From: Pectobacterium aroidearum
Lineage (GTDB): Bacteria; Pseudomonadota; Gammaproteobacteria; Enterobacterales; Enterobacteriaceae
DNA: 64,000 bases
NCBI RefSeq assembly: GCF_015689195.1
Contig: NZ_CP065044.1
Coordinates: 1,550,001-1,614,000 of the forward strand
Reading direction: 5' to 3'
Position 1 is the stretch's first letter; every line of letters starts with the position of its first letter. The position numbers and the translations under genes are program-made. Shown here in pieces: positions 30,199 through 37,973 of this stretch. The notes beneath the pieces were generated by a model. That model did no database searches. It was given only the letters and a program-made list of their open reading frames with translations, and was not told where the DNA came from.

Positions 30199-31335
30199 AT
30201 GAAAATCAAAAATACTCTCTGCCTACATATCCTGATGGCTACCCTTGCCATCCTGTTTCTTAGCGTTCCCCCGCTGGTGAAGAGCGTTGATCCGGCGCTG
30301 ACATTCCAGCCGATGATTAACACGATGGAAGGGACGGCAAAAGAACAAAAGGAAAAGATAGCCACCATTTCCCATGCATTACAGGGAAATGCGATTTTCT
30401 TTCTCGGCGCTTCCGAGGTCTCTACATCGGAAGATGAACATTACGCTGTCTATAATTACTTTAATAACCAGTTACATCGTCCGGTTGTGGCCTATGGCGA
30501 TAGCTATGTAGATAGCGTCACGCACTTTTTACTGCTTTCACGTTTTAAAAATGAGCTTAACGCTAACAGTAAAGTTGTTTTGCTGCTGGCACCCGATAGC
30601 TTTTATTCAGACGGTATTCCCCCGGCAATTTTTGCCAATAATTTCCCGGCATCTATTTTTAATCCCCTGATGCAGGATGATCAGACGCGCCCCTTTTTGG
30701 TCAATTACTTACAACATATCGATAAAGAAGAGATAAGCCACTTAACGTTTGGCCAAATGCAAGTCTATGGCTGGGATCCACAAATTATCTGGCAGGAAGT
30801 GAGTTATCAATTTGCTAATTTCTGCGAGCTAATAAAAAACGACTGGCTGTCGATGCTAGGTATTATTCCCCAGCCGACACAACCGTGGCCACATCGGTCA
30901 ACTGTCAATACGATTCCTGACTGGAATCGCGAGTTGGCGCAGGCTCAGTTGTTGAATCAGTCCCGCGAGCAAAGTGCAGACACATTGTGGATGGATAAAT
31001 CCGTTTTTGCAGACGATAAAACACCGGAAGAGTGGGACGATGCACCGATTGTTCCGGCGCAGATGGAAGCGTTATCGGCGACGATCAAACTGCTGAAAGC
31101 GCGCAACGTCCAGTTTGTTGTGATTGTCGATCCGATTAATCCGTGGGCAATTAAAAATTCCGAGAAATTCCAGCCAGTCGATACCCAGATCAGATCGATG
31201 CTGGAGGCAAATCAGGTTCGCTATTTTGATATGTATGCGCAGCCTTATCAGAACGGCTGGAATTGGGATCGCCTGCACCCAACCGATCCGGCATGGGTCG
31301 CGATGGATCAATTTATTGCAGAGAGTTTTAAATGA
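30199..31335 (+). CDS. dltD: DltD-family D-alanyl transfer protein
   Basis: SGNH-like esterase anchored to the inner membrane by an N-terminal helix (residues about 8-28) with its body in the periplasm; 378 residues. The catalytic set of DltD is present: Ser in FFLGASEVSTSE near residue 75 and the Asp/His pair in NWDRLHPTDPAW near the C-terminus. In Gram-positive bacteria DltD takes D-alanine from DltX to teichoic acid; here the acceptor must be another envelope polymer. It is first in the operon and overlaps dltX by 4 bp. No good ribosome-binding site precedes ATG 30199, so the start is less certain. Confidence 0.85.
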   Translation: MKIKNTLCLHILMATLAILFLSVPPLVKSVDPALTFQPMINTMEGTAKEQKEKIATISHALQGNAIFFLGASEVSTSEDEHYAVYNYFNNQLHRPVVAYGDSYVDSVTHFLLLSRFKNELNANSKVVLLLAPDSFYSDGIPPAIFANNFPASIFNPLMQDDQTRPFLVNYLQHIDKEEISHLTFGQMQVYGWDPQIIWQEVSYQFANFCELIKNDWLSMLGIIPQPTQPWPHRSTVNTIPDWNRELAQAQLLNQSREQSADTLWMDKSVFADDKTPEEWDDAPIVPAQMEALSATIKLLKARNVQFVVIVDPINPWAIKNSEKFQPVDTQIRSMLEANQVRYFDMYAQPYQNGWNWDRLHPTDPAWVAMDQFIAESFK

Positions 31336-31454
31336 TGAAAACTGCCATTCGCCTTTTTTTCCTTTATCTCTTTCTGGCAGTCACCATCGTCGCATGGACT
31401 TCTGTTGATGAAAGCATGAGTTTAAAAGTGCATTTTGAATATCAAAAATTCTGA
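31332..31454 (+). CDS. dltX: DltX-like membrane microprotein (40 residues)
   Basis: A short frame that automatic annotation may skip. It begins ATGATG overlapping the dltD stop, encodes one N-terminal transmembrane helix (about residues 6-22, LFFLYLFLAVTIVAW), and ends exactly in F35-E-Y37-Q-K-F40. FxYxxF at the C-terminus is the conserved motif of Gram-positive DltX, whose tyrosine carries D-alanine between DltB and DltD. dltB begins 7 bp downstream. Position, size, topology and motif all agree, but in Gram-positive operons dltX precedes dltA, so gene order differs. Confidence 0.8.
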   Translation: MMKTAIRLFFLYLFLAVTIVAWTSVDESMSLKVHFEYQKF

Positions 31455-31461
31455 AGGATGA

Positions 31462-32583
31462 ATGATGTACAGCTCCGGAATGTTTTTTTTCCTTCTGTTT
31501 TCATCGGCCTTACTGTTCGCGCTGGTTAATCGCGTATTCAGTTATCGGCTGACGTATTTATCCGCCTTTTCCGTATTGGCGGTGCTAGGCTGGGGATATA
31601 TTTTCCAGGGGGATTACCTTGTTCCCGTGGCGGTTTTCCTGAGCTTTTATCTTCTGGTCACCTTAAAAGAGAAAGGGTGGTTAAAAACCTGGCAGGCAGT
31701 CAGCCTGACGCTGTTGCCGCTATTTTTGGTGAAATTACACCTCAATAACCACTGGGGCATGATCGGCCTGTCCTTTATGACCTTCCGCGCCATTGATGTG
31801 CTGCTTTATCGCAGCAAAAAAGATGGTCAGCATTTCCTGCATTACTTCTGCTACCTCTTTATGCCTTTTATTATTCTGGCTGGCCCGATGTATCGCTGGC
31901 GGACATGGGTTAATGACATCACTAAGCCTGTCTTCACGCTCACCCGTGAGCAGTTTTTGGTGGCCATGGAGCAAATTTTTACCGGCATTATTCAGAAGTT
32001 CTTATTTGCCATGCTGATCAATAATCTGGTTATTGAATCGTGGAGCCATCGCCCGTTTACGTTAAGCGTTGGCGTCGTGATGTCGCTGGCCTACAGCGCC
32101 TATCTCTACTTTGATTTTGCCGGCTACAGCAATATGGCTATCGGGGCTGGTCGCTTATTTGGCCTGAGTATCCCGGCAAACTTCAATCTGCCTATTCTGG
32201 CCAAAAACCCGCAGGATTTCTGGCGGCGCTTCCATATCAGCCTGTCTGAATGGCTGCGGGATGTGGTCTTTATGCCGATTTATATGAATCTGATGAAGCT
32301 CGACTTTTTCCGACAGAACAAAACGTTGGCGCAGAATATTGGCATCTTCTGCACCCTGTTTTGTATGGGGGCATGGAACGGGCTTGAACGACACTATGTC
32401 ATCAGCGGCGCGCTGTTTGGCGCCATTTCCGTTGCTCACAACATGTTGCAGTGGTCAGCCAAACGCAGCCCAACGCTGAGCAATTGTCTACATCATCCGG
32501 TTATTGTGTTCATCGGTCGAATTCTGACGCTGGCAAGCGCTGCGGCCTCCCTCTACATCTTTAGCGGAATGTCTCCTCTATGA
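31462..32583 (+). CDS. dltB: DltB-family MBOAT acyltransferase
   Basis: Inner-membrane O-acyltransferase of 373 residues with about ten or eleven hydrophobic helices. It should take D-alanine from DltC on the cytoplasmic side and pass it to DltX. The MBOAT core is visible: YFDFAGYSNMAIGAGRLFG, then NPQDFWRRFHISLSEWLRD with the conserved His258. The second MBOAT motif, normally WHG, reads GAWNGLERHY, giving Asn306 where the family usually has the catalytic His; His311 lies five residues on. It overlaps dltA by 4 bp. Confidence 0.88.
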   Translation: MMYSSGMFFFLLFSSALLFALVNRVFSYRLTYLSAFSVLAVLGWGYIFQGDYLVPVAVFLSFYLLVTLKEKGWLKTWQAVSLTLLPLFLVKLHLNNHWGMIGLSFMTFRAIDVLLYRSKKDGQHFLHYFCYLFMPFIILAGPMYRWRTWVNDITKPVFTLTREQFLVAMEQIFTGIIQKFLFAMLINNLVIESWSHRPFTLSVGVVMSLAYSAYLYFDFAGYSNMAIGAGRLFGLSIPANFNLPILAKNPQDFWRRFHISLSEWLRDVVFMPIYMNLMKLDFFRQNKTLAQNIGIFCTLFCMGAWNGLERHYVISGALFGAISVAHNMLQWSAKRSPTLSNCLHHPVIVFIGRILTLASAAASLYIFSGMSPL

Positions 32584-34013
32584 ACCTTCACTCTGAGCTT
32601 CAGGAACTGCAAGATTTCCTCCGTGCGGCCTTACTCCAACCCGCCAACCCAGATTGGTTGGCGATTAGCGGCAGCGATGACGCGATGACCTGGCAACAGC
32701 TCTCCGTCGCCGTGACAGACTGGTGGCATCGCTATCAGCAATGCCAGCAGCCTGCGGGATTGCCGGTCGTGTTATATGGTCACCAGCAGGCTGAGTTTGC
32801 CGTAGCGATCTATAGCTGTTTGCTGCATAACATTCCGTATATCCCAGTGGATTGCATCTATCCGCAAGAGCGGCTTAAAGAGATTTGCCATCTGGCGAGC
32901 GCGCCTTACTATTATGATGTCGCGACCCGACAGTTCATTGCGACCGGGGAGGCCGGACAGGCGCTGGTCGAGCAGGACCTTGCCTATATTATGTTTACCT
33001 CTGGCAGCACCGGAAAACCTAAAGGAGTGCAGATCGGACGTGAAAGCCTGTGGCACTTCATGAAGTGGGTACGTCAGGACTTTTCGCTGCCGGACGTGCC
33101 GGTGCTGATGAACCATGCGGTGTTCAGCTTCGATCTCTCGTTGATCCCGTTGCTGGCGAATCTGGCAACCGGAGGGCATATCGTTCTGAATGCGAAAGAG
33201 GATATCGCGGCAGAAAACTGGCTCGATCGCCTGAAAGACAACGGCGTTTCCGTCTGGGTGTCAACGCCGTCTTTCGCTTACCAGAAGCTGCTCTCGCCTC
33301 AGTTCAACAGTGAATATTTACCTGAACTCAACGTCTTTGTGTTCATTGGCGAAGTGCTAAATAAAGCATTGGTCAAACAGCTACGCCGCCGCTTCCCGCA
33401 GGCCAAAATTCTCAACTCTTATGGGCCAACAGAAGCGACTATCGCGACCACTGTTATCGAAATCACCGATGAAATCCTACACAGCGACAACGATCTGCTG
33501 CCGGTCGGCGCGATGATGCCGGATTCCAGAATGGAAATTACCGCTGAAGGTGAGTTGATCATTTGGGGCAAAAACGTGATGCGCGGCTACCTTGGGCTCG
33601 CGAAAGAGAATGCCGAAAAATTGCTGCGTCGGGAAAGCGAAGCGTTCCGGGGCTACAGAACGGGCGATCTGGGCTACGAGAATGGGTTGCTATACTGCCA
33701 GGGGCGTAATGACAGCCAAATCAAACTAAATGGCTACCGTATTGAAATCAACGAGATTGAAAACCGCCTGCTGGCGATGTCCGACATCAGTGAAGCGGTG
33801 GTTCTGCCGCTGATGAAATCGGGCGGCGGCGTTCTGCGCATCGCGGCGTTCTGCGTCACGAACTTAGCGCCTGAAGCGATTAAAACGTCACTCTCGAAAG
33901 TCATCCCGCCTTACATGGTGCCTTCCCAAATTATTATCAAAGATGCGTTGCCGCTGAATCCTAACGGCAAAATCGACCGTAAACTGCTGGACACCCATGC
34001 CCGCACGATCTAA
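32580..34013 (+). CDS. dltA: D-alanine--D-alanyl carrier protein ligase
   Basis: Cytoplasmic adenylation enzyme of 477 residues in the ANL superfamily. It activates D-alanine with ATP and loads it on DltC. Core motifs in order: YIMFTSGSTGKPKGV (P-loop, near residue 140), LNSYGPTEATIATT, YRTGDLGYENG (A7/A8 region) and NGYRIEINEIE, and the C-terminal lysine in NPNGKIDRKLL. The domain layout is that of a stand-alone adenylating enzyme without condensation domains. It lies between dltB and dltC, 13 bp before dltC. Confidence 0.9.
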   Translation: MNLHSELQELQDFLRAALLQPANPDWLAISGSDDAMTWQQLSVAVTDWWHRYQQCQQPAGLPVVLYGHQQAEFAVAIYSCLLHNIPYIPVDCIYPQERLKEICHLASAPYYYDVATRQFIATGEAGQALVEQDLAYIMFTSGSTGKPKGVQIGRESLWHFMKWVRQDFSLPDVPVLMNHAVFSFDLSLIPLLANLATGGHIVLNAKEDIAAENWLDRLKDNGVSVWVSTPSFAYQKLLSPQFNSEYLPELNVFVFIGEVLNKALVKQLRRRFPQAKILNSYGPTEATIATTVIEITDEILHSDNDLLPVGAMMPDSRMEITAEGELIIWGKNVMRGYLGLAKENAEKLLRRESEAFRGYRTGDLGYENGLLYCQGRNDSQIKLNGYRIEINEIENRLLAMSDISEAVVLPLMKSGGGVLRIAAFCVTNLAPEAIKTSLSKVIPPYMVPSQIIIKDALPLNPNGKIDRKLLDTHARTI

Positions 34014-34026
34014 TGACTCAGGAAAA

Positions 34027-34251
34027 ATGATGGAACAAGAAATACTCGCGCTGTTTGAAAAGATCTTATCCCGCAAAGTGGGTTTCAATGATGAGCTGAT
34101 AGAGTCCGATATTCTCGACTCTATTCTGGCGGTCGACTTGGTACTGGAAGTGCAGGACGTTTACGGCTGCGTGATCCCGCCAACCGAAGTCGCTACCGTA
34201 CTGAAAACTCCGGCGGACTTGGCTCGCTATATTGAAGAGAACCGCGGCTAG
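34027..34251 (+). CDS. dltC: D-alanyl carrier protein
   Basis: A 74-residue acyl-carrier-like protein. Ser32 in SDILDSILAVDL is the phosphopantetheine attachment site, in the DS context used by DltC. The following helix VLEVQDVYGCVIPPTEV is the usual partner-recognition helix. ATG 34027 (with ATG 34030 next to it) follows CAGGAAAA. It is last in the operon and is followed by a terminator. Confidence 0.88.
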   Translation: MMEQEILALFEKILSRKVGFNDELIESDILDSILAVDLVLEVQDVYGCVIPPTEVATVLKTPADLARYIEENRG

Positions 34252-34281: not shown

Positions 34282-34313
34282 AAAAACCCTGGATATTTAT
34301 CTGGGGTTTTTTT
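34282..34313 (+). terminator. Terminator of the dlt operon
   Basis: AAAAACCC pairs with GGGTTTTT (loop about 14 nt with extra wobble pairing), followed by Ts, 30 bp beyond dltC. Confidence 0.85.
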
Positions 34314-34443: not shown

Positions 34444-34484
34444 GAAAAGATCTTTCAACAATGGATAATACACGGAGACGTAAA

Positions 34485-35363
34485 ATGGACTCATTCACTT
34501 TAGAAGATCGATTTAATTATCAACCTTTAACCAATTCTCAAGGTGAAATCTACCCTTTTGGCGTGAGTATTGAACCTAAACAGTCAGGTGTGCATATTGG
34601 CGAATTATCGCCTAACTGGCTGCGTACACTCGTAGAGAACCAACAATTAGTGATACTGCGGGGCTTTGATAGTTTTACGAGTGCAGAAAATTTAACAACA
34701 TACTGCGCCGCCATGGGTGACATTATGCAATGGCCGTTTGGCGCCGTGTTGGAACTGGTTGAACAGCCCGATGCTACCGATCATATCTTTGCTAACAACT
34801 ATGTCCCCTTGCACTGGGATGGCATGTACCTTAAGACCGTGCCTGAGCTCCAGGTCTTTCAATGCGTCTCAGCGATTGGCGAAGGGCAGGGTGGGCGAAC
34901 CACGTTTTCTAGTACCACCACTGCGTTACGTCTGGCATCACCCGAAACCAAAGCGTTGTGGCAACGTGCAACAGGTCAGTATCAGCGTGCCGTCGAGCTA
35001 TATAGCAGTACCGCAGAAGCGCCTATTATAGAACAGCACCCTTACCGCACTTATCCCGTCATTCGCTTTTGTGAGCCGCCGATTGCTGGCGATAAAGAAT
35101 TCTTGAACCCATCCACTTATCATTTCTCAGGCATTGAACCTGAAGAGCAAGAGCTATTACTCAGCAGTTTGCAACAAGCCTTATATGATCCACGGGTTCA
35201 GTATGCGCATCAGTGGCAAAGCGGCGATATTGTCATTGCAGATAACTACTCGTTATTACACGGTCGTGAATCTTATGCCAGCCAGAGTGGCCGTCATCTA
35301 CGTCGGGTGCACATCCATGCGAAACAGCCGCTGACTAACCCACATTTGGTGCAACCGTCATGA
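34485..35363 (+). CDS. TauD/TfdA-family Fe(II)/2-oxoglutarate dioxygenase, PvcB/IsnB-like
   Basis: A 292-residue non-haem iron oxygenase. The 2-His-1-carboxylate facial triad shows as HWD in NNYVPLHWDGMY (about residues 106-108) and a distal His in NYSLLHGRESY, with the 2-oxoglutarate-binding Arg in GRHLRRVHIHA. The segment WPFGAVLELVEQ...DHIFANNYVPLHWDGMYL is what I associate with PvcB, which oxidises isonitrile-functionalised tyrosine; no PvcA-type isonitrile synthase gene is present nearby. ATG 34485 follows GGAG by seven bases; ATG 34461 is less likely. It overlaps the next gene by 4 bp, so the two act together. Confidence 0.75.
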   Translation: MDSFTLEDRFNYQPLTNSQGEIYPFGVSIEPKQSGVHIGELSPNWLRTLVENQQLVILRGFDSFTSAENLTTYCAAMGDIMQWPFGAVLELVEQPDATDHIFANNYVPLHWDGMYLKTVPELQVFQCVSAIGEGQGGRTTFSSTTTALRLASPETKALWQRATGQYQRAVELYSSTAEAPIIEQHPYRTYPVIRFCEPPIAGDKEFLNPSTYHFSGIEPEEQELLLSSLQQALYDPRVQYAHQWQSGDIVIADNYSLLHGRESYASQSGRHLRRVHIHAKQPLTNPHLVQPS

Positions 35364-36793
35364 AACCACAGCATGTTGATCTCATGATTATCGGCGCCGG
35401 GCCAGTCGGCCTGGCCTGTGCCTATCTTGCTCAGCTGTCAGGTTTAAGCACTGTCATTATCGATAAATCATCAGGGCCGCTAACGGTAGGCCGTGCTGAT
35501 GCGCTAAACGCCCGTAGCTTACAGCTGTTTGAAATTATCGGTTTATTCGACGAGCTTTACCCCTTAGGCAAAACCTGCAATACCAGCTCAGTCTGGTCAA
35601 AAGGTAAATTTATTTCACGCCAATCTACCTGGTGGGATGCTTTAGAAGGCTGTTTCCACAAGCATTTTTTAATGATTGGTCAGGCTTATGTGGAACAAGC
35701 GCTCGATAATAAGCTCACCGAACTAAAGAGTGCCGTGCGCCGTAATACTTCTGTGGAAAATATTGTGCTGGAGGGCGACGGCTGCCTCACTACGCTCACC
35801 AACGGTGAGACCGTGCGTTCCCGGTATTTGATTGGTGCAGATGGTTCACGATCGTTTGTGCGCCAACACTTTGCTATCCCGTTTGAGATCACGCGACCAC
35901 AAATTACCTGGGCCGTGATTGATGGTGAAATAGAAACTGATTTCCCAAAAGTACCAGAGATTATTGTTTTCCAGGCTGAAACTGCCGATGTAGCGTGGAT
36001 ACCACGTGAAGGTAAGATTGATCGTTTCTATATCCAGATGGAGAGCGAGGACTTCACGCAACAGCAGGCGGTAGATAAAATTAATCATGCTCTGCAACCA
36101 CACCGTCTTCGTTTCAAGTCGATTGAGTGGTACTCACAATTCTCGGTTAAAGAGTCCGTAGCAGAACATTATAGCCTTGAAAATAAATTATTTATCGCTG
36201 GTGATGCGAGCCATATTCACTCGGTAAATGGTGGGCAAGGGTTAAATACCGGGTTGGCTGATGCATTTAACCTCATCTGGAAAATAGCGATGATTACCCA
36301 TCATCATGCGCCTCAAACGCTATTACAGACTTACGAAACAGAGCGAAAAGCGGTCGCGCTGGAAGTGGTAAAAACGTCAGCGGAACTCGTGCGTTCGACC
36401 AAAACCTCAGAGACAGGCAACCATGCCGATGATTACGTCAAGATTGTCGAAAAACGTGCGGGTTACATCACGGGGATGGGCGTTCGCTATGGAACCGACG
36501 GGCGTGTTGGTGAAAGGCTGCATGATTTTATGTGGTGTGATCCTCAATCTGGGCAGCCTGGCAGAATTTACTCACATTTAAATTATCGTCATTACAGTTT
36601 GCTCATCATCGGCGCGGCAGATGTACCTGCATCACTGCCTGATATCGTCAATATTCTGCACGTTGAAACGGGAAGTAGCCCCTATTCCGATCAATACCTG
36701 TTAGTTCGGCCAGATGGCTATATAGCCGCCACCGCTCCTCTCGACCATCCTTCAGTCATCAGTCATTACTTCAGTGACTGGCGAGTTCAATAG
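35360..36793 (+). CDS. FAD-dependent aromatic hydroxylase-type monooxygenase
   Basis: A 477-residue group A flavin monooxygenase. The N-terminal FAD motif is LMIIGAGPVGLACAYLAQLSG, with the later conserved GADGSRSFVR (DG motif) and IAGDASHIHSVNGGQGLNTG (GD motif). Relatives hydroxylate phenols or tailor natural products. Coupled by overlap to the PvcB-like dioxygenase, it probably acts on the same small-molecule intermediate, which is unknown. It is followed by a terminator, so the operon has two genes. Confidence 0.82.
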   Translation: MKPQHVDLMIIGAGPVGLACAYLAQLSGLSTVIIDKSSGPLTVGRADALNARSLQLFEIIGLFDELYPLGKTCNTSSVWSKGKFISRQSTWWDALEGCFHKHFLMIGQAYVEQALDNKLTELKSAVRRNTSVENIVLEGDGCLTTLTNGETVRSRYLIGADGSRSFVRQHFAIPFEITRPQITWAVIDGEIETDFPKVPEIIVFQAETADVAWIPREGKIDRFYIQMESEDFTQQQAVDKINHALQPHRLRFKSIEWYSQFSVKESVAEHYSLENKLFIAGDASHIHSVNGGQGLNTGLADAFNLIWKIAMITHHHAPQTLLQTYETERKAVALEVVKTSAELVRSTKTSETGNHADDYVKIVEKRAGYITGMGVRYGTDGRVGERLHDFMWCDPQSGQPGRIYSHLNYRHYSLLIIGAADVPASLPDIVNILHVETGSSPYSDQYLLVRPDGYIAATAPLDHPSVISHYFSDWRVQ

Positions 36794-37487: not shown

Positions 37488-37973
37488 ATGGCTAATTATG
37501 CATACATGACTATCGAAGGTAAATCACAGGGATTGATTTCTGAGGGATGTTCCACATTAGAATCAATCGGTAACCGATATCAGGCAGGGCATACCGATGA
37601 AATCATGATCCTGGCTTTTAACCACATGATGAGTAATGACGGTCATGCTGTTCATAATCCTATCACCCTGGTAAAACCTATCGATAAGTCAACACCGTTA
37701 CTGGCAATGGCATTGAACGAGCAAGAAAAGGTCAAAGTGTTGCTCGATTTTTACCGCACCACGCAACATGCCAAGCAAGAGAAGTTTTTCTCCATTCAAA
37801 TTAATGATGGACTCATATCAGATATCAATCTAGTCATGCCTAATATCATTGATGATGGTGCTGGTCTGATATTAGAGCATATCTCTATCAGATATAAAGA
37901 TGTGACATGGACGCACCACAAAGCCGGAACGTCTGGTTATGCATTGTGGGAAATGACGAAGTTTATGAACTAA
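37488..37973 (+). CDS. hcp: Hcp-family type VI secretion tube protein
   Basis: A 161-residue Hcp. It starts MANYAYMTIEGKSQGLISEGCSTLESIGN, the family's N-terminal beta strands, and ends with the typical ISIRYKDVTWTHHKAGTSGYALWEM. Hcp hexamers stack into the tube expelled by the type VI system and carry small effectors. No tss genes are in the window, so this is an orphan copy working with a main T6SS elsewhere. It is monocistronic with its own terminator, faces a convergent candidate toxin/immunity cluster, and shares its promoter block with the dioxygenase operon. Confidence 0.9.
   Translation: MANYAYMTIEGKSQGLISEGCSTLESIGNRYQAGHTDEIMILAFNHMMSNDGHAVHNPITLVKPIDKSTPLLAMALNEQEKVKVLLDFYRTTQHAKQEKFFSIQINDGLISDINLVMPNIIDDGAGLILEHISIRYKDVTWTHHKAGTSGYALWEMTKFMN

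Follow-up and report, generated by a model that had tools for sequence, protein, structure and literature searches.

A dlt-type operon of Pectobacterium aroidearum with asparagine at the site of the MBOAT histidine in DltB

The dlt genes are responsible for teichoic acid D-alanylation in Gram-positive bacteria, where they occur as dltXABCD, and homologous genes have been described from several Gram-negative bacteria. The dltBAC and dltD genes were reported from Dickeya dadantii, Pectobacterium and Photorhabdus (Costechareyre 2013, PMC3544676), with dlt expression induced in aphids and by polymyxin and a dltB mutant surviving polymyxin less well (PMC3544676). Lipopolysaccharide (LPS) has been named as the probable target of dlt in soft-rot bacteria (Pandin 2016, as cited in PMC5541007), and D. 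solani is reported to need DltB to be virulent on nightshade (PMC10931765). The dra locus of Bordetella pertussis is cited as five genes that place D-alanine onto the outer membrane and confer peptide resistance, and its acceptor is protease-susceptible according to the title of a cited work. The operon, its gene order and its link to peptide resistance are already in print. In this study, we analyzed a dlt-type operon in a 64,000-nucleotide stretch of the P. aroidearum genome (assembly GCF_015689195.1, contig NZ_CP065044.1, positions 1,550,001 to 1,614,000 of the forward strand; hereafter the window), whose DltB protein carries asparagine in place of the catalytic histidine of the MBOAT superfamily.

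The dltDXBAC operons of Dickeya and Pectobacterium have the same genes in the same order as the window, from which no difference in gene content was found, and the Dickeya loci L076 and L081 are D-X-B-A-C with asparagine in DltB. Neither the DltB asparagine nor the DltA isoleucine reported below is mentioned in the available parts of PMC3544676 or PMC5541007. Compared with Gram-positive dltXABCD, the X, A, B, C and D genes are homologous and the active sites of the DltB partners are kept, but the gene order differs, DltB has His336 changed to Asn, Tyr345 to Ser and the next histidine to Phe, and DltA of the enterobacterial branch has Cys269 changed to Ile. The resemblance to dra (BP2987-BP2991) is, by citation, that of a five-gene D-alanylation locus; its family relatives Candidimonas and Paralcaligenes have the order C-D-X-B-A and a DltA cysteine, unlike the window, and asparagine was present in DltB of all 20 Paralcaligenes-family loci read. 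PatA/PatB of peptidoglycan O-acetylation and AlgI-type pairs also combine an MBOAT protein with an SGNH partner and a tyrosine shuttle motif (PMC12148441), but in these the MBOAT protein itself carries the motif as a fusion and acetyl-CoA is the donor; the histidine is kept in 46/46 MBOAT-SGNH loci of these types. The mammalian Gup1 homologue HHATL likewise has no MBOAT histidine, but it carries leucine instead of asparagine and is thought not to be an acyltransferase (PMC5831804).

Asparagine at the MBOAT centre of DltB

The catalytic His336 of the solved DltB has been called invariant in DltB or present in all MBOAT proteins (PMC11035591, PMC12148441). The window DltB has the MBOAT fold and lacks the catalytic histidine of the WHG motif. 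DltB was aligned in 74 rows, which represent 71 distinct proteins of soft-rot bacteria, Kosakonia, Enterobacter, Buttiauxella, Photorhabdus and the Paralcaligenes family; L111 (broken dltB), L113 (broken frames) and L115 (contig edge) were excluded. Every row has asparagine at the His336-equivalent site, and the outgroup rows gave histidine at the same site in 17/17, namely seven of seven Gram-positive DltB and ten of ten other MBOATs. A scan of named genomes yielded 59 loci, 56 with dlt genes and three with other MBOATs, and WNG was read in 55 of the 56, including L113 and L115. The asparagine-bearing DltB proteins form one clade on the tree, and the window protein is 25-29% identical to four Gram-positive rows.

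The change is accompanied by others nearby: the window DltB has Ser315 for Tyr345 and Phe319 for His349 (Streptococcus numbering, with the number of His349 obtained by counting along the alignment). The equivalent of His258 is common to all MBOATs examined. A further histidine, His326, is present in 74/74 clade rows, in none of the seven Gram-positive DltB and in three of the ten other MBOATs, and is a possible stand-in for the lost residue; an early alignment had made it common to all MBOATs, which was dropped on the wider alignment.

The codon at the Asn306 site is AAC in 48 of 73 rows and AAT in 25. Ten pairwise comparisons of dltB with the window gave ratios of nonsynonymous to synonymous substitution (dN/dS) of 0.039-0.078 in eight, the other two being saturated, and dltB is under strong purifying selection. 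Decay of DltB was also considered and was rejected on the full-length frames in the aligned set, the dN/dS of 0.04-0.08 and the synonymous change at the asparagine codon. No mention of asparagine at the DltB catalytic site was found in the titles and abstract openings of the open-access literature, a scope outside which most subscription papers fall, and the clade-wide change from histidine to asparagine at the MBOAT centre is apparently a new element.

Operon genes, partner proteins and the amino acid

An earlier note on this DNA had proposed five dlt-type genes at 30199-34251 in the order D-X-B-A-C, closed by a terminator and arranged differently from dltXABCD. The open reading frames and family matches bear out the genes and their order (Table 1), X-A-B-C-D was read in two Gram-positive records, and a terminator-like hairpin with a U tract was found 3' of dltC, which was not among the results of a consensus terminator scan. 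DltD, DltA and DltC were recognised by both Pfam and NCBIfam and DltB by NCBIfam, with the NCBIfam scores of the LTA_dltB, LTA_DltD, DltA and DltC matches all below the curated equivalog cut-offs. No Pfam or NCBIfam model matched DltX, and the DltX-like microprotein of the note is upheld by its C-terminal end, which fits the published acyl shuttle motif FxYxxF (PMC12148441). The link to Bordetella dra, also drawn in the note, stands as far as the citations go. The asparagine of DltB does not figure in the note, which was made without alignments.

Table 1. Genes and functional codons of the dlt-type operon (window coordinates).
Feature	Position	Strand	Description
dltD	30199..31335	+	SGNH-type acyltransferase, predicted periplasmic; Pfam DltD, E 1.5e-24
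DltD Ser72 codon TCC	30412..30414	+	nucleophile
dltX-like gene	31332..31454	+	membrane microprotein of 40 residues, C-terminal end FEYQKF
DltX Tyr37 codon TAT	31440..31442	+	expected aminoacyl carrier, by homology
dltB	31462..32583	+	MBOAT-fold membrane aminoacyltransferase, 373 residues
DltB His258 codon CAT	32233..32235	+	equivalent of His289; kept in 74/74 rows
DltB Asn306 codon AAC	32377..32379	+	equivalent of MBOAT catalytic His336 (WHG motif)
dltA	32580..34013	+	carrier-protein ligase that adenylates the amino acid
DltA Ile256 codon ATT	33345..33347	+	equivalent of enantiomer-selecting Cys269 of B. cereus DltA
dltC	34030..34251	+	carrier protein, 73 residues; start codon chosen by alignment
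Terminator-like hairpin with U tract	34282..34311	+	

The partner proteins retain the residues expected of a working relay. DltD, for which an N-terminal membrane anchor and a periplasmic location are predicted, has all of its active-site residues Ser72, Asp357 and His360; with L111 and L113 left out, the serine is kept in 53/53 loci (52 as G/S-A/S-S-E and L067 as AASE) and the Asp-His pair, by pattern, in 53/53. The 52 DltX copies found by similarity end in FEYQKF (39), FEYQQF (10) or YEYQQF (3), and L110, L112, L114 and all 20 of the loci L133-L152 have the motif as well. The phosphopantetheine serine of DltC, Ser31, lies within LDSI and is kept in 54/54.

DltA departs from the Gram-positive pattern. 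In B. cereus DltA, Cys269 is one of the determinants by which D-alanine is selected over L-alanine (PMC4176424), and with L088, L104, L111 and L113 left out the equivalent residue is isoleucine in 46/46 enterobacterial rows, the window included, and cysteine in Photorhabdus (4/4) and the Paralcaligenes family (23/23 rows, three of these double). The methyl-pocket methionine is isoleucine in the same 46/46 and the valine is isoleucine in 40/46, while Asp197 and Leu198 are kept. A regular-expression reading had given Ala or Ser at the selectivity site in L110 and L114, which was dropped when the full alignment gave Cys. The window DltA thus lacks the Cys269 equivalent through which D-alanine would be selected, and D-alanine is assigned to this pathway by homology alone because the selectivity cysteine is isoleucine. 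D-alanine is most likely the amino acid activated, to judge from the related ligases, and the isoleucine of the enterobacterial branch is apparently a further new element beside the DltB asparagine.

Distribution and genomic context

The order in the 56 named dlt loci, assigned by script, was D-X-B-A-C in 48, C-D-X-B-A in six (three Photorhabdus, two Candidimonas and one Paralcaligenes), D-X-B-A in one (L088, where dltC was not found) and B-A in one (L115, at a contig edge). A dlt-type DltB was present in 8 of 394 genomes of the order, as judged from matches with frames of 373-385 residues, in 1 of 369 genomes of the class, which is the window's own, and in 24 of 200 genomes of the Paralcaligenes family. 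None was found among 299 genomes of the G575 family, where five of six weak matches carry WHG and the pattern missed the remaining one (L130), and megablast did not find the operon in E. coli genomes. A PF03062 search of the window's genome returned no MBOAT match and is uninformative because it missed the window DltB itself.

The nearest named relatives of the window DltB are in Pectobacterium, the closest on the tree being P. zantedeschiae. Most Pectobacterium loci share flanks with the window (E 1e-8), whereas such flanks were rarely found in other loci. A complete D-X-B-A-C operon lies between insertion sequences on plasmids of Klebsiella electrica and Enterobacter cloacae (L120:6736-10788 and L121:6736-10788); the two copies are 100.0% identical to each other and their DltB is 88% identical to that of the window. 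The scarcity of shared flanks outside Pectobacterium, together with the identical operon on two plasmids, indicates that the operon moves between hosts. A K. pneumoniae plasmid carries 55% of the L120/L121 operon, across the record start.

Several other loci deserve mention. The dlt frames are broken or missing in L088, L104, L111 and L113, of which L088 and L113 belong to the insect symbiont Symbiopectobacterium. L095 is titled Chryseobacterium, yet the DNA of its flank is 83-87% identical to that of the enterobacterial loci L102 and L103, so that mislabelling or contamination of the assembly is probable. The Photorhabdus genome of L107 has a second MBOAT frame of 477 residues (G1377 C8:289395-290441, E 3.1e-35). 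Downstream of the operon in the window are genes for a TauD-like dioxygenase and an FAD-dependent monooxygenase (34461-36793, + strand, 4-base overlap), the latter passing NCBIfam NF005531 with 854 against 530 bits, and about 3 kb downstream an Hcp family gene (37488-37973, + strand; Pfam T6SS_HCP, E 4.4e-22). A functional link of dlt to the TauD-like and FAD-dependent genes was rejected, as they adjoin it in only 3 of 56 named loci (L062, L063 and L104; E 1e-8).

Proposed pathway and its alternatives

On balance, we favour a Gram-negative branch of dlt D-alanylation that uses the same relay as Gram-positive bacteria, with a rebuilt MBOAT centre containing His258 and Asn306; a working pathway with such a centre is the likeliest interpretation of these sequences. 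The activity, amino acid, acceptor and residue roles that we infer are as follows. DltA would activate a small amino acid, which is most likely D-alanine, for loading onto the DltC phosphopantetheine; DltB would carry it across the membrane onto the DltX tyrosine; DltX would pass it to the DltD serine; and DltD would esterify an acceptor outside the inner membrane, making the envelope charge less negative. For the acceptor, our provisional choice is an outer-membrane component on which hydroxyl groups are exposed. In DltB, His258 would become the catalytic residue, paired with Asn306. This pairing would mirror the Asn/His pair of eukaryotic MBOATs, histidine standing where ACAT1, DGAT1 and PORCN have asparagine and asparagine where they have histidine. 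More tentatively, and with somewhat less confidence, this would be a bacterial MBOAT clade active without the 'universal' histidine through a swapped catalytic pair, whose enterobacterial members may also use another amino acid.

Several observations weigh against this interpretation. Replacing the equivalent histidine abolished PatA activity and the residue is reported as required in DltB (PMC12148441), while HHATL, with leucine for the MBOAT histidine, is thought inactive (PMC5831804). A D. dadantii dltD mutant is reportedly as resistant as the wild type (Pandin 2016, cited in PMC5541007), which fits poorly with a strict relay through DltD, and the dltB mutants are insertions that may silence dltA and dltC too. 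His326 rivals His258 as substitute base, since His258 is common to all MBOATs examined and His326 is also fixed in the clade. The asparagine of Bordetella DraB is an expectation drawn from other genomes of its family.

Other explanations accommodate parts of the same evidence. In an ordinary dlt operon placing D-alanine on LPS, the DltB change might be functionally neutral, and for Dickeya it is LPS that is given as the probable target (Pandin 2016, as cited in PMC5541007); we consider this unlikely, as asparagine in 74/74 clade rows stands against histidine in 17/17 outside, neutral drift is improbable given that asparagine is fixed in the clade and that positions 315 and 319 have also changed, and the Bordetella acceptor, protease-susceptible by the title of a cited work, points to protein rather than LPS. 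We give about the same low weight to the enterobacterial branch carrying glycine or another small amino acid instead of D-alanine. The replacement of Cys269 and of the methyl-pocket residues in DltA would suit such a substrate, but Asp197 and Leu198 are retained, the best NCBIfam matches are DltA models, a larger residue at 269 would exclude L-alanine all the same, and Photorhabdus and the Paralcaligenes family keep the cysteine.

Least probable of all is a dead DltB acting as scaffold or channel, with DltC bypassing MBOAT chemistry to reach DltX or DltD, or with a different function for the pathway. The disappearance of the 'universal' histidine from all 74 rows, along with two neighbouring residues, and the presumed inactivity of the cited exception HHATL (PMC5831804) would agree with it. 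However, the carrier, the adenylating enzyme, the shuttle tyrosine and the DltD residues are all kept, the MBOAT fold and His258 are retained, and D-alanine incorporation by Bordetella dra is cited in print; the kept partner residues and the strong purifying selection favour an active pathway.

The probable role of the operon is to decorate the cell surface with D-alanine and so to aid resistance to antimicrobial peptides. The DltB variant bears on such resistance because inhibitors of DltB are being sought, and the m-AMSA contacts His336 and Tyr345 (PMC11035591) are both altered in the window protein (Asn306 and Ser315). If 71 distinct DltB proteins under selection do without the MBOAT histidine, the general-base mechanism assumed for the superfamily becomes testable in a natural variant.
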